Source: Dasania sp. GY-MA-18 (lineage in GTDB: Bacteria > Pseudomonadota > Gammaproteobacteria > Pseudomonadales > Dasaniaceae). Taken from it: 64,000 nt of DNA. Shown here piece by piece: positions 1,137 through 25,432 of this stretch; position 1 is the stretch's first letter; each line of letters starts with the position of its first letter. The stretch covers positions 372,001 to 436,000 of the forward strand of contig NZ_JANHAP010000001.1 of assembly GCF_024734385.1 (NCBI RefSeq). The letters are read 5' to 3'. The notes below the pieces were generated by a model that was given only the letters and a program-made list of their open reading frames with translations, was not told the DNA's origin and did no database searches. The position numbers and the translations under genes were made by a program.

Positions 1137-1997
1137 TTAGTGCTCTATAGCTGCAGCAATAGACAGGGTGCGCCGCGCTTCTTCCACATGTAGATTTTCT
1201 ATCAGGCGACCATCTAACAACACCAATGCCTCACCTGCCTGTTCTGCCTGCTGCCAGGCGGCAATCACTTTATGGGCCCACTCCACATCTGTGGCGCTAG
1301 GCGCAAACATCTGGTTGGCATAGGCCAGTTGTTTTGGATGTATCACACTCTTACCATCAAAACCCAAATCGCGGCCCTGCTCACAGCTATGTTGGTAGGC
1401 TTGCTCATTGTTTAAATCCAGCTGTACGCCATCAATAATATCTAAGTTATTGGCCCGCGCCGCCAACACACAAAGATTCAACGAGGCCAATAAGCCCTGG
1501 CGATCATCGCGGTTACGCAGTCGTAACTCTTTAGATAAATCACTGGTGCCCATCATCAACACCGTTACGCGCTCACTGGCGCTACACACCTCTTCAATAT
1601 TTAGCACGCCCCTAGGGGTTTCTGCCATCACCCATAAATACAGACTGGCGGGAGCCTGCGCCCTATCCAAAATAGCCAGTGCCTCAGCCACTTCTGCTGC
1701 GCTTTCGACTTTAGGTAAGCAAATAGCATGAGCACCACTATGCGCCATAGCTTTTAGATCGGCTTCGCCCCATTCAGTATCCAAGGCATTAACCCGCACT
1801 ACAATTTCGCGCCGACCATAATCACCTTGCTGTATCGCGGTTTTAATAATCTCCCTGGCTTGCGCCTTTGCCGCAGGGGCAACGGCGTCTTCCATATCAA
1901 AAATAAGGCAGTCGGCGGCTAATTGCTGGGCTTTTGCTAAGGCTCTGGGATTGGAGCCAGGCATGTATAACACGCTGCGGCGGGGGCGGATTTGCAT
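1137..1997 (-). CDS. HpcH/HpaI aldolase-citrate lyase family protein (CitE-like CoA ester lyase)
   Basis: 286 residues, the normal length for stand-alone CitE-like lyases. Family motifs run in order: RRSVLYMPGSNPRAL at the N terminus, the acidic FDMEDAV near 33-39, VRVNA near 68, LPKVESAAEV near 95, MAETPRGVLN near 124, the metal-site MGTSDLSKEL near 150, and GFDGKSVIHPKQL near 215. Such enzymes cleave or form (3S)-malyl-CoA, citramalyl-CoA or related CoA esters with Mg2+ in the cytoplasm. No citrate lyase alpha or gamma gene is nearby, so a role in citrate fermentation is unlikely. A C-C lyase of acyl-CoA breakdown is more probable, but the exact substrate is unknown. Confidence 0.85.
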   Translation of the reverse strand: MQIRPRRSVLYMPGSNPRALAKAQQLAADCLIFDMEDAVAPAAKAQAREIIKTAIQQGDYGRREIVVRVNALDTEWGEADLKAMAHSGAHAICLPKVESAAEVAEALAILDRAQAPASLYLWVMAETPRGVLNIEEVCSASERVTVLMMGTSDLSKELRLRNRDDRQGLLASLNLCVLAARANNLDIIDGVQLDLNNEQAYQHSCEQGRDLGFDGKSVIHPKQLAYANQMFAPSATDVEWAHKVIAAWQQAEQAGEALVLLDGRLIENLHVEEARRTLSIAAAIEH

Positions 1998-2099
1998 AAC
2001 TACCTCAAACTAAAAAATTGAGGTCGTATTCTAACAGCGGGGCAGCGCCAGCTTCTATAAAGTGGCGCTTATAGTGGCTATTTTAAATTATTTAACTGA

Positions 2100-2915
2100 T
2101 TACGATAACAAACTCAGCACCAGCTGCGAACTGGCATTGGCCTGGGCCTGCAGCGCATTGCCACTATTTTTTAATAGGCTTTGTTTCAGCTGCTCGCTGG
2201 TGGCCAAGGCAAAGTCGGTATCGTTAATGCGGCTGCGGGCGGCTGCGGTATTTTCGGCGCTGTTGCGATTATTACTAATCACAGACTCTATACGCTTACT
2301 CACCGCGCCTAAATCACCACGAAAACTATTGACTGCATCGATAGCCGTATCTATCACCGCTAGCGCATTACTGGCGCCCACCCCAGTAGAAACATCTATG
2401 GCTTGGGCCGGCGTTAGGCTAGCGCCTAGATCGGGTAGCTGCAGGCTTAGTTTGTCGCTCGCTAGGCCACCCACTTGCAGCTCTATAGTCGCATTACTTT
2501 GCAACAGCTTAAGATCATTAAACTGGGTAGTATCTAACACCGTACTGATTTGTTCTTGCAACTGGCCTACCTCAGCCTGTATAGCATCCCGCTGGCTGTT
2601 CCCTAAAGTGCCGTTGCTAGCCTGCAGGGATAACTCCCGTATGCGGCTGAGATTGTCGTTAATCGAAGACAAGCCGCCATCGGCCACCTGCACCAATGAA
2701 ATGCCGTCGCTGGCATTGCGTGCCGTTTGATCCAGGGCATTTAATTCAGTTAGCAATTGCTGAGAAATAATTAACCCTGCCGCATCATCTTTAGCGCTGT
2801 TAATTTTTTTACCCGAGCTTAAGGGCTGCAAGCCTTCTCTCTCTTGTTTGGCGTTTTTTTGCAACTGATTTAATAAACTCTCGTTGCTGGCGATTTCGCC
2901 TATAGTCAGGCCCAT
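2100..2915 (-). CDS. Short, divergent flagellin
   Basis: 271 residues. The N-terminal D0/D1 region (about 1-140) has LSSGKKINSAKDDAAGLIIS and RIRELSLQASNGT. The C-terminal D1/D0 region (about 190-271) has INDTDFALATSEQLKQSLL and ends QANASSQLVLSLLS. There is no room for D2/D3 outer domains, so it should form a thin filament. The N terminus is unlike the usual MALTVNTN start of FliC: it reads MGLTIGEIASNESLLNQ. It stands alone, with no fliD, fliS or hook genes nearby; the motor genes lie 59 kb away. The start is supported by GAGGTGA five bases upstream. A minor filament subunit is as likely as the main one. Confidence 0.88.
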   Translation of the reverse strand: MGLTIGEIASNESLLNQLQKNAKQEREGLQPLSSGKKINSAKDDAAGLIISQQLLTELNALDQTARNASDGISLVQVADGGLSSINDNLSRIRELSLQASNGTLGNSQRDAIQAEVGQLQEQISTVLDTTQFNDLKLLQSNATIELQVGGLASDKLSLQLPDLGASLTPAQAIDVSTGVGASNALAVIDTAIDAVNSFRGDLGAVSKRIESVISNNRNSAENTAAARSRINDTDFALATSEQLKQSLLKNSGNALQAQANASSQLVLSLLS

Positions 2916-3093
2916 TAGTTCACCTCAACCCTATAGTGTTTACTATCACCCTAGCCTAGCAGTTCTGGCACGAACTTCTAATATTCGTTTTTATCAAAGC
3001 TCATACACTTATAACTTTGCTATATATGCCCCTGCGCAGCGTTTATAAAAACTGCTATATTGGCGGGCCAAATAACTGCCTAGGTAACGCAAG

Positions 3094-9262: not shown

Positions 9263-9391
9263 CTATTATCTTTGAATTTATTCGTCATGCCTGCGTACAA
9301 GGTGAATTGCGCAGCAAGAGAGGGCACCCTGGGACGGGCCGGTATCTATGATTTTGTTTTTTTATTAGTAATTATTTGATACTTGCCATTT

Positions 9392-9633
9392 GTTTCGCCT
9401 TGCCGGGCGATAAGGGGCCTTTGCATGCCCAAAGGCCCCTTAACCCCAAAGGGCACCCCTAGTCCGTCGTCGGCTGCGCCGATGCCCTGCGCTACTCGAA
9501 AAACTAACGGCCGCTGCGCAACTCACAAAAAACGATACTCAATCGTTTTTTGCTCGGACAGTGCTCGCTGCTTCGCGCCGTTATTTTCCTCCGTTGCTCG
9601 GCGACTCCCAAGGGGAATCTGGGTGCTTCGTAG
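9392..9633 (+). repeat. Structured repeat element, left copy (inverted relative to 10451-10694)
   Basis: About 242 bp matches the reverse complement of 10451-10694 in conserved blocks (AAAGGGCACCC at 9448, GTCCGTCGTCGGCT, CTCCGTTGCTCGGCGACTCC, AAGGGGAAT, GCTTCGTAG). Between the blocks lie perfect hairpins. The first is TCGCC/GGCGA (9395-9410). The second is a 12-bp stem AAGGGGCCTTTG/CAAAGGCCCCTT with loop CATGCC (9412-9441). The third is an 11-bp stem CAAAAAACGAT/ATCGTTTTTTG with loop ACTCA (9526-9552). Stem sequences differ between copies but pairing and loops are kept. An 89-codon reading frame across it is not credible as a gene. Confidence 0.8.
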
Positions 9634-9781
9634 CGAGATTGGCTGGGCATAGAGATTAAAGGCTGCAATCGTGAATAATTTACAGAATAATGACTAGTTC
9701 TAAACGTTTAAAAGTGTGTATATTGAGGCATAAGATCTAGGCATGGACATTCTAATTAATACAATTGTTAAACGGTAAAGC

Positions 9782-10378
9782 ATGGAAATCAGAGCTCGCA
9801 GAGAATATGCTTCGATGATGCGGGAGTGTCGCTATCGGGTCGAAACACTGCGTGACTTCACGTCCGGAAAAACGCATTGCACCTATCTACAAACAACGAT
9901 TGAATCGGAAGCTCTTCAATTGCGAAAATTGCTTGAGCTAATTGCGTTCTCATCGCTTGTGTCATACCAAAATGCCTACCGCACTGTGAGAAGCGATATT
10001 GCGAAGGATTGGCACGCAGCAAGGATCTTACGCAAGATTGAGGACATCAACCCTGAATTCTATCCAGTTCCAGTAGATGGCTTCAATAAGCAAAGCTGGA
10101 CTAAAGTACAAAGCGGGTACCTCACTAGAAAGCAGTTCGAACGGTTATATGATAAATGTGGGGCAATGCTTCACTCTCAAAATCCCTTTTCAAAAGGGAA
10201 AAGTTCATTAGCCTTCCATAAAAAAGTACCTGAATATTTAGATAGGATTGAAACCCTATTGTCAGAGCATTTGGTGGAACTTGCGGAATCACAAGATCTC
10301 ATTCACGTGATCGCTCCGATGGAAGAAAATGCACCAATTCAAGTCCGATACTTAGTGCGGAAAACGAGGCACGCTTAA
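9782..10378 (+). CDS. Unknown protein carried between inverted structured repeats
   Basis: 198 residues; I do not recognise the family with confidence. It is soluble, mostly helical and rich in Arg, Lys and His, with no signal or membrane segment. A conspicuous segment is FERLYDKCGAMLHSQNPF (near 119-136). The Cys-x(4)-His-x(3)-Pro-Phe pattern looks like a conserved motif, and a HEPN-like fold is possible but unproved. Codon choice is more AT-rich and less biased to C-ending codons than in deaD or the VWA gene, which suggests transfer. It is the only gene between two inverted repeat copies (left ends 9633, right starts 10451). The ATG at 9782 has only a weak ribosome site. Confidence 0.72.
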   Translation: MEIRARREYASMMRECRYRVETLRDFTSGKTHCTYLQTTIESEALQLRKLLELIAFSSLVSYQNAYRTVRSDIAKDWHAARILRKIEDINPEFYPVPVDGFNKQSWTKVQSGYLTRKQFERLYDKCGAMLHSQNPFSKGKSSLAFHKKVPEYLDRIETLLSEHLVELAESQDLIHVIAPMEENAPIQVRYLVRKTRHA

Positions 10379-10450
10379 GACCAAGGGCTCAGAGTCGTTG
10401 AAAAACACCCAACAGCAATAACACCTCCACACTATCCCACCACAAATCAA

Positions 10451-10694
10451 CTACGAAGCCCCCGAATTCCCCTTGGGAGTCGCCGAGCAACGGAGATTTT
10501 TAACGGGACGAAGTAGTGACGGATGTCTGAGTATTTTTTGATTAAGTATCAAAAAATGCGAGTTCCGGAACGACCGTTAAAAATTGAGTAGCACAGGGAA
10601 TCGGCGTAGCCGACGACGGACTAGGGTGCCCTTTCTTTTGGTTCTGTTTTCTTTGGGCAAACAAAGAAAATGAACCCGCCCAGCGAGGCGGAAC
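10451..10694 (-). repeat. Structured repeat element, right copy
   Basis: Reverse-complement copy of 9392-9633. On the minus strand it carries hairpin CCGCC/GGCGG (10676-10691). The second stem is TTTTCTTTG/CAAAGAAAA with loop TTTGCC (10647-10670), extended by GTTC/GAAC. The third is a 10-bp stem ATTTTTTGAT/ATCAAAAAAT with loop ACTTA (10533-10557). All three occupy the same places as in the left copy but with different, still complementary stem bases. The block around TTCTTTGGGCAAACAAAGAA resembles a repeat I have seen beside many gammaproteobacterial genes. That recollection is not checked here. Confidence 0.8.
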
Positions 10695-24898: not shown

Positions 24899-24942
24899 GC
24901 CTGTAAACCTTAGCCGCCAGCTAGACCAAAAATCGCAGGCAT

Positions 24943-24973
24943 AAAAAAAGGCCACCTTGCGGCAGCCTTTTTT
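24943..24973 (-). terminator. Terminator of the cold-shock gene
   Basis: On the minus strand AAAAAAGGCTGCC and GGTGGCCTTTTTT pair around GCAA (two G-U pairs) and end in a T run, 14 bp after the csp stop. Confidence 0.85.
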
Positions 24974-24987
24974 AACAACGTTACTAT

Positions 24988-25191
24988 TTAGATAGCAACG
25001 ATGTTTTCAGCTTGTGGGCCTTTTTGGCCTTGAGTTACATCAAACTGAACTTTTTGGCCTTCGGCCAAAGTTTTGAAACCATCGCCTTGAATCGCGCTGA
25101 AGTGTGCGAATACGTCTGGGCCGTTCTCTTGCTCAATAAAACCAAAACCTTTGCTTTCGTTGAACCACTTTACTGTACCTGTTGTTGCCAT
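24988..25191 (-). CDS. Cold-shock protein, CspA family
   Basis: 67 residues, one cold-shock domain. RNP1 is KGFGFIEQ and RNP2 is VFAHFSAI; the start [12 protein letters not shown] and the end [10 protein letters not shown] are standard. It binds single-stranded RNA/DNA and melts RNA structure. The gene is monocistronic and codon use is strongly biased (AAC, GTT, GGT, CAA), which suggests high expression. AGGA lies ten bases before the ATG. Confidence 0.96.
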
Positions 25192-25330
25192 GATCTAATC
25201 CTAAATTTATCAATGTTACTTTATTTATAATGACGCTTTAAAATCAGCATTGAATTATGGAACTCAGGACGGTACAACAAAAAAGAACGTCTTAAAGGTT
25301 GAACATAAAAACACGCTATCATTTACAAGC
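25192..25330 (-). promoter_or_regulatory. Probable long untranslated leader of the csp gene
   Basis: About 140 bp of AT-rich sequence between the csp start and the divergent CoA-transferase gene has no reading frame. Long 5' leaders are usual for cspA-type genes and act in cold induction. No exact cold-box match was found, so this rests mainly on position. Confidence 0.35.
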
Positions 25331-25432
25331 TGTTGAAATTATATGCCATTTTGGTGAAGCGTCAACATACAGCAGCGAATAATAAAACAGGCCTACCGCT
25401 AGGCTTTGCCACTATCGACTACAGGAAACAGC

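Follow-up and report, generated by a model that had tools for sequence, protein, structure and literature searches.

An apparently undescribed self-folding repeat, usually in inverted pairs, that brackets swappable gene cassettes in Dasania

A kind of repeat that folds on itself, usually arranged as inverted pairs, is widespread in many bacteria and has apparently not been described; in the genome of Dasania sp. GY-MA-18, integron gene cassettes that can be swapped, along with other accessory genes, lie between the two members of such pairs. The pair considered here lies in a stretch of 64,000 nucleotides (the window, whose positions are used below unless a locus is named), and its two copies, or halves, are inverted, inward-facing and diverged (9395–9633, + strand; 10451–10691, − strand). 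A repeat search of the window gave two sets of inverted arms, 9505–9633/10451–10579 (129 nt, 72% complementary) and 9457–9497/10586–10626 (41 nt, 93% complementary). The three stem pairs quoted in a sequence-only reading of this DNA are all present in the sequence of both copies, and the feature is larger than that reading stated: it has further helices and a pseudoknot, and the copies enclose cargo. The attI-like segment and cassette gene inside the pair went unnoticed in that reading, as did the fact that copies usually come in inward-facing pairs. Each half is about 240 nt long and has eight or more helices. The parts of the pair are:

9395–9633, + strand: half a, running inwards from P1 to GTAG; its outer limit is unresolved
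9395–9410, + strand: half a, P1 hairpin TCGCC/GGCGA
9411–9442, + strand: half a, P2 hairpin, loop CATGCC
9451–9455, + strand: half a, GGGCA, which forms the pseudoknot with TGCCC (9426–9430) in the P2 loop region
9470–9482, + strand: half a, P4 hairpin TCGGC-TGC-GCCGA (loop GCA on the other strand)
9500–9587, + strand: half a, P5 stem, arms at about 9500–9511 and 9577–9587, enclosing P6, P7 and P8
9526–9552, + strand: half a, P6 hairpin, loop ACTCA
9570–9576, − strand: half a, P8 mini-hairpin GCGAAGC, on the inner-to-outer strand
9670–9779, + strand: head, an attI-like segment common to eight loci, with a GTTAAAC end (GTTRRRY) at 9767–9773
9782–10378, + strand: cargo ORF of 198 aa, without Pfam, NCBIfam or PADLOC family
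10451–10691, − strand: half b, inverted; outer boundary not resolved
10533–10557, − strand: half b, P6 hairpin, loop ACTTA
10628–10632, − strand: half b, segment of the pseudoknot (TGCCC on +); its partner is GGGCA at 10655–10659 in the P2 loop region
10647–10670, − strand: half b, P2 hairpin, loop TTTGCC
10677–10691, − strand: half b, P1 hairpin CCGCC/GGCGG

An 89-aa ORF (window 9383–9652) lies entirely inside half a. Repeat-internal ORFs recur, with one cluster formed from 7 of the 122 loci compared, and genome annotations probably list them as hypothetical proteins.

Compensatory change in the stems had been taken as evidence of selection on folded RNA or single-stranded DNA. Two copies alone would be weak evidence, but 30 BLAST matches and 22 covariance-model matches were obtained in this genome. 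The alignment comprises 28 chosen copies, most of them without nested insertions, taken from this genome, a congener (G001) and two genomes (G004 and G009) of a second Dasaniaceae genus. RNAalifold predicted 46 pairs for these copies, with two-sided change in 29, and in a hand-set structure of 44 pairs, 93.2% of the cells were paired and 29 of the 44 pairs showed two-sided change. The covariation score reached 0.369, against 0.110 ± 0.009 for shuffled alignments (0 of 500 as high) and no more than 0.168 for slid versions of the structure. The claim is thus supported far above both types of control, although formal R-scape was not used, and the stems still covary in the larger alignment that had been named beforehand as a possible refutation. 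A measure based on further pair types was matched by 32 of 500 shuffles of the same alignment. Tests against such shuffles are inflated by kinship among the copies, and the hand-set structure beats its slid versions partly because it was drawn from the consensus; independent support for the covariation is provided by distant taxa. Both window halves fold as DNA with low z-scores (−4.35 and −3.66; 0 of 200 shuffles as low).

The pseudoknot is formed by pairing of the P2 loop with a segment downstream of P2. Among 178 copies examined, 121 could be scored, and complementarity of at least 4 nt was found in 102 of these (shuffles: mean 35.4, maximum 49). With one copy kept per distinct loop, 39 of 50 met this threshold (shuffles: 11.5, maximum 19) and 23 of 50 had at least 5 nt (shuffles: 2.4, maximum 7); a looser criterion gave 105 of 139 against 53. 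Several halves (e.g. L015, L017, L018, L053, L056 and L058) carry a smaller MITE-like palindrome of the TTGATTCAAA ... GCAATTTG type, within P2 or next to P5 and in both orientations, and in L251, from a Stenotrophomonas-type genome, a REP-like palindrome stands in place of the apical P6 hairpin.

Covariance-model searches detect the family in other Gammaproteobacteria as well as in Betaproteobacteria and Desulfobacterota. Matches at the DNA level were obtained in 6 of 57 genomes and model matches in 10 of 398 genomes drawn from the phylum, all of the same class, both counts including the genome itself. The conserved pattern occurs in at least 119 stretches of named contigs (Zoogloea, Variovorax, Rubrivivax, Luteimonas, Stenotrophomonas, Methylophaga and Desulfosarcina are among the matches listed), and 95 of 100 loci tested from this set gave aligned model matches, which include five loci from Desulfobacterota (L132, L136, L142, L178 and L189). 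Viral contigs gave three matches to the pattern; two repeat queries had no match in phage records. No description of the repeat was found in the literature, a search restricted to open-access PMC that included motif strings. Records from Aeromonas, Pasteurella, Ilyobacter and Pseudoalteromonas (L098, L099, L100 and L101) contain a P2-like module with other cores or long stems and have no covariance-model match; since the module sits atop different long stems, the superfamily may be wider than model R1 shows.

The usual arrangement is an inward-facing pair. Of 49 cases of neighbouring copies no more than 1 kb apart, 41 face inward (spacers of 40–285 nt), seven outward and one the same way; in this genome, six of the seven pairs of neighbours lying up to 2.5 kb apart are inward-facing (counted by eye). 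The two halves of a pair are 50–81% identical (mean 70%) in 40 distant pairs, and the best between-pair match of seven Zoogloea pairs averages 92%. In the genus of the window, within-pair identities are 71, 98, 83 and 85%, the 98% being that of L009.

Wobble pairs and hairpin loops in distant copies favour the inner-to-outer strand as the folding strand. Mismatches were counted with a strand-neutral helix finder, an A.C mismatch on one strand being equivalent to G.T or G.U on the other. Read on the outer-to-inner strand, P5 has 47 A.C against 6 G.T in 147 distant copies (p 6e-9; 44:6 for distinct helices) and P2 has 25 against 5 in 107 (p 3e-4; 18:5 for distinct helices, p 0.01). The preference is not significant in the 28 close copies (P5 3:1, P2 5:1). 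RNase P, used as a control of known strand, gave 32 G.T against 2 A.C over 28 loci with exact stems, and 23 against 25 with off-register stems. Structure-bound counts on the + strand (G.T against A.C) were 10:27 for A1, 36:14 for A2 and 152:133 for A3. RNAalifold structures lean towards the wobble of the strand used for prediction (36:14 on + and 97:5 on − for A2; distant copies gave 14:58 read on + with the + structure and 73:13 with the − structure), and it is because of this bias that the strand-neutral test carries the weight. The possibility that both strands fold equally was dropped, as the underlying alignment had been fitted to a + strand model.

The hairpin tips also differ between strands. 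P4 triloops are TNC on the + strand (GNA on the − strand) in 23 of 25 close copies and in 57 of 82 distant ones, with three the opposite way; P6 triloops are GNA on the minus strand in 43 of 116 distant copies and never on the other; GNA-type tips of P8 occur in 16 of 23 close copies and only 13 of 68 distant ones. Of 178 cores, 142 have GCGNAGC on the minus strand and five have it on the plus strand. GNA mini-hairpins are described, in the available part of the source, as extraordinarily stable in DNA (PMC4686876), and a partial view of another source places GCGAAGC within the P1 promoter sequence of phage N4 (PMC12633501). The one-strand tips, combined with the reported stability of GNA, favour folded single-stranded DNA over RNA; this is a leaning towards one DNA strand and no proof, and RNA is not excluded.

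Each half could instead encode a structured non-coding RNA transcribed from its inner towards its outer end, the pair then corresponding to divergent RNA genes or to the ends of an RNA-fold unit. Covariation together with a pseudoknot is typical of RNA, the wobble on one strand is of G.U type, as in the RNase P control, and the minus strand has a good RNA folding energy. This possibility remains in play but seems unlikely. No Rfam family covers the repeat when the whole window is searched at the gathering threshold, and the best overlaps in six loci searched at E up to 5 are chance-like and below gathering. The copies form inverted pairs at a repeat-like copy number, and 5 of 41 inward pairs leave no more than 60 nt between their cores. 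Outward promoters are not in excess in the 41 spacers (14 of 82 readings with four or fewer mismatches, against 14 of 82 after shuffling), and GNA triloops are, as far as the part of PMC4686876 available goes, a stability motif of DNA. Elsewhere in the window, a cspA thermoregulator RNA (24942–25333, minus strand) scores barely above Rfam gathering.

The inward pair of the window holds an ORF of unknown function that has distant matches on four plasmids and no Pfam, NCBIfam or PADLOC family; its single-sequence structure prediction has a mean pLDDT of 38. Other pairs contain 177-aa and 163-aa proteins with a GNAT-like remnant (L009), a GFA-like protein with UzuA (E 2.6e-93; L010), a 200-aa protein (L011), 70-aa and 142-aa proteins (L013), a 148-aa protein (L053), or a weak LmuA match (9.7e-7) with a 199-aa and a GNAT-like protein (L054). 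In the second Dasaniaceae genus, inward halves at L061 (7732–12813) enclose a retron III-A reverse transcriptase, a PRTase, DUF2971/PDC-S31 and two unknown genes; L062 holds a hydrolase-like protein, and L063 a lone reverse transcriptase between two halves (1816–3009, minus strand), nearest to group II maturases but below the curated cut-off (202.7 of 300 bits). In the viral contig L229, PDC-S31 (E 6.4e-48) lies between inward halves. GNAT-, GFA- and hydrolase-like are labels given by inspection of translations, and family names are annotations, no function having been shown by test. Most inward pairs in other taxa have no cargo-sized spacer.

Several features connect the pairs of this genus with integrons. 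The genome encodes an IntI (TIGR02249, 399 bits, above cut-off, 327-aa ORF), and the attI-like head adjoins one half in each of its eight loci, with an exact GTTRRRY end in four. Upstream of intI, a region can be aligned with the head profile as far as TTAATAA..CTGTT, but with an E value of only 0.56 over 475 kb; when this region was compared with individual heads, three of the eight beat all 30 shuffles and five did not. Some sister cassettes have attC-type self-complements, which are clear in L054 (9 nt) and L015 (8 nt); that of L009 has 6 nt (chance 0.26) and a hairpin. No exact attC-type self-complement was found in the window cassette or in L011, and the finder picked wrong starts for L010 and L053. 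A weak match to the head profile at L020 (2836–2935, E 0.057) is unexplained.

The cargo changes at orthologous sites (flanking genes being named by inspection of translations): an orthologous dock in the congener keeps its halves and holds another gene. At the rlmL-ygiQ site, halves are present in both species with different cassettes (L011 against L053). At the mdh site, both species have a pair with a GNAT gene or remnant, but the two loci (L009, L054) differ in orientation and in their other flank. A Stenotrophomonas-type slot followed in 13 genomes contains the element in four, lacks it in five and could not be evaluated in four. The window site itself allows no clean comparison with G001, in which the left flank is followed by another gene and the right flank joins an outer end of type a in reverse orientation, after which the contig ends.

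Passive repeats would be a simpler explanation, in which template switching at quasi-palindromes maintains the stems, ordinary recombination spreads and pairs the copies, and cargo is enclosed by chance. The near-identity of the two halves of one pair (L009) suggests exchange between copies, as do the orthologous single halves at the purD-purH site, which have a similar outer flank and a different core in the two species (L012, L056). Such a process is nevertheless improbable, given that it is not expected to make a loop complementary to a separate segment, or to yield one-strand wobble and loop preferences, and that the bias towards inward orientation is strong. The earlier view that the pair is more than a passive repeat is upheld by covariation beyond controls and by recurrence of the structure in other classes.

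The mover of the halves was not identified: they have no Y1 neighbour, and no target duplication could be resolved, the flanks of filled and empty Stenotrophomonas-type slots being too diverged. The largest clusters of neighbouring proteins over 122 loci are ABC-type ATPases (11 loci) and a transporter-receptor-like family (7 loci), and none of the 14 clusters listed is a recurrent transposase-like neighbour that would indicate an autonomous copy. Mobilisation of REP-like elements in trans by a RAYT/Y1 transposase, suggested by Y1_Tnp matches in 9 of 10 element-bearing genomes tested, by REP-type hairpins seen by eye beside many outer ends and by the inverted REPs that flank RAYT genes (PMC2817692, from the part available), is very improbable in view of the absence of model matches in 16 Y1 loci from nine genomes, taken with flanks of about 1.5 kb, of the many copies in G004, which has no Y1_Tnp match, and of a size and fold unlike those of 20–40 bp REPs. 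An IS200/IS605-type element would rely on a Y1 enzyme cutting one strand at ends marked by hairpins, and the Y1 genes present in nine of the ten genomes do not adjoin the repeats.

The reading retained, tentatively and at a little short of an even chance, takes the pair as a single copy of a dispersed, two-part structured element, whose folded single-stranded DNA ends are recognised in trans and which serves as a dock filled by IntI. Each half of about 240 nt would fold on its inner-to-outer strand into a shape with many helices, a pseudoknot and small C-GNA-G hairpins, and because the halves are inverted, opposite strands would present this shape at the two ends. The identification of the folded form as single-stranded DNA and not RNA is an inference, as is the enzyme acting in trans that would recognise the halves as ends. 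In other taxa the halves mostly stand face to face with a short spacer, and in Dasaniaceae some pairs bracket cargo and would act as a dock. The attI-like segment just inside one half, in this genus, means that IntI could insert or replace cassettes there in trans; its service to dispersed heads is inferred, and so is the recombination between halves that would flip or exchange the inside.

A broader proposal, of an undescribed mobile or docking class in which paired, pseudoknotted halves folding as single-stranded DNA are recognised in trans in Pseudomonadota and Desulfobacterota and capture and swap cargo (cassettes, retrons and other anti-phage genes), is possible but rather doubtful. If the interpretation is right, many proteobacterial intergenic repeats belong to a single old family of folded elements, which mark accessory genes, phage-defence candidates among them, and may also move them, and one integron integrase could serve many chromosomal places. 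With this family, selection on folded DNA could also be tested at genome scale.

The repeat is placed here among the bacterial interspersed structured repeats, as an apparently unreported variant, and a categorically separate class is not excluded. Like REP/BIME repeats with RAYT, which the accessible portion of PMC2817692 presents as intergenic, dispersed, hairpin-forming and often in inverted pairs, it combines these properties, but its halves of about 240 nt have many helices, a pseudoknot and no adjoining Y1 gene, and do not meet the REP definition (20–40 bp palindrome with a GTAG or CGTC tag) as given in the available text. The head with its GTTRRRY-like end, attC-type sites in some cassettes and IntI in the genome recall integrons, from which the dock differs in that several heads lie scattered at a distance from intI, with structured halves on either side; CALINs, as far as PMC9024848 could be consulted, are attC clusters without such brackets. 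Inverted ends, a variable inside and the lack of a transposase are shared with MITE-like elements, whereas the ends here are folded multi-helix structures and no target duplication has been shown. The GCGAAGC mini-hairpin on one strand resembles the promoters of the phage N4 virion RNA polymerase (PMC12633501, seen in part); these are single small hairpins, whereas the mini-hairpins of the repeat cap a larger composite fold.
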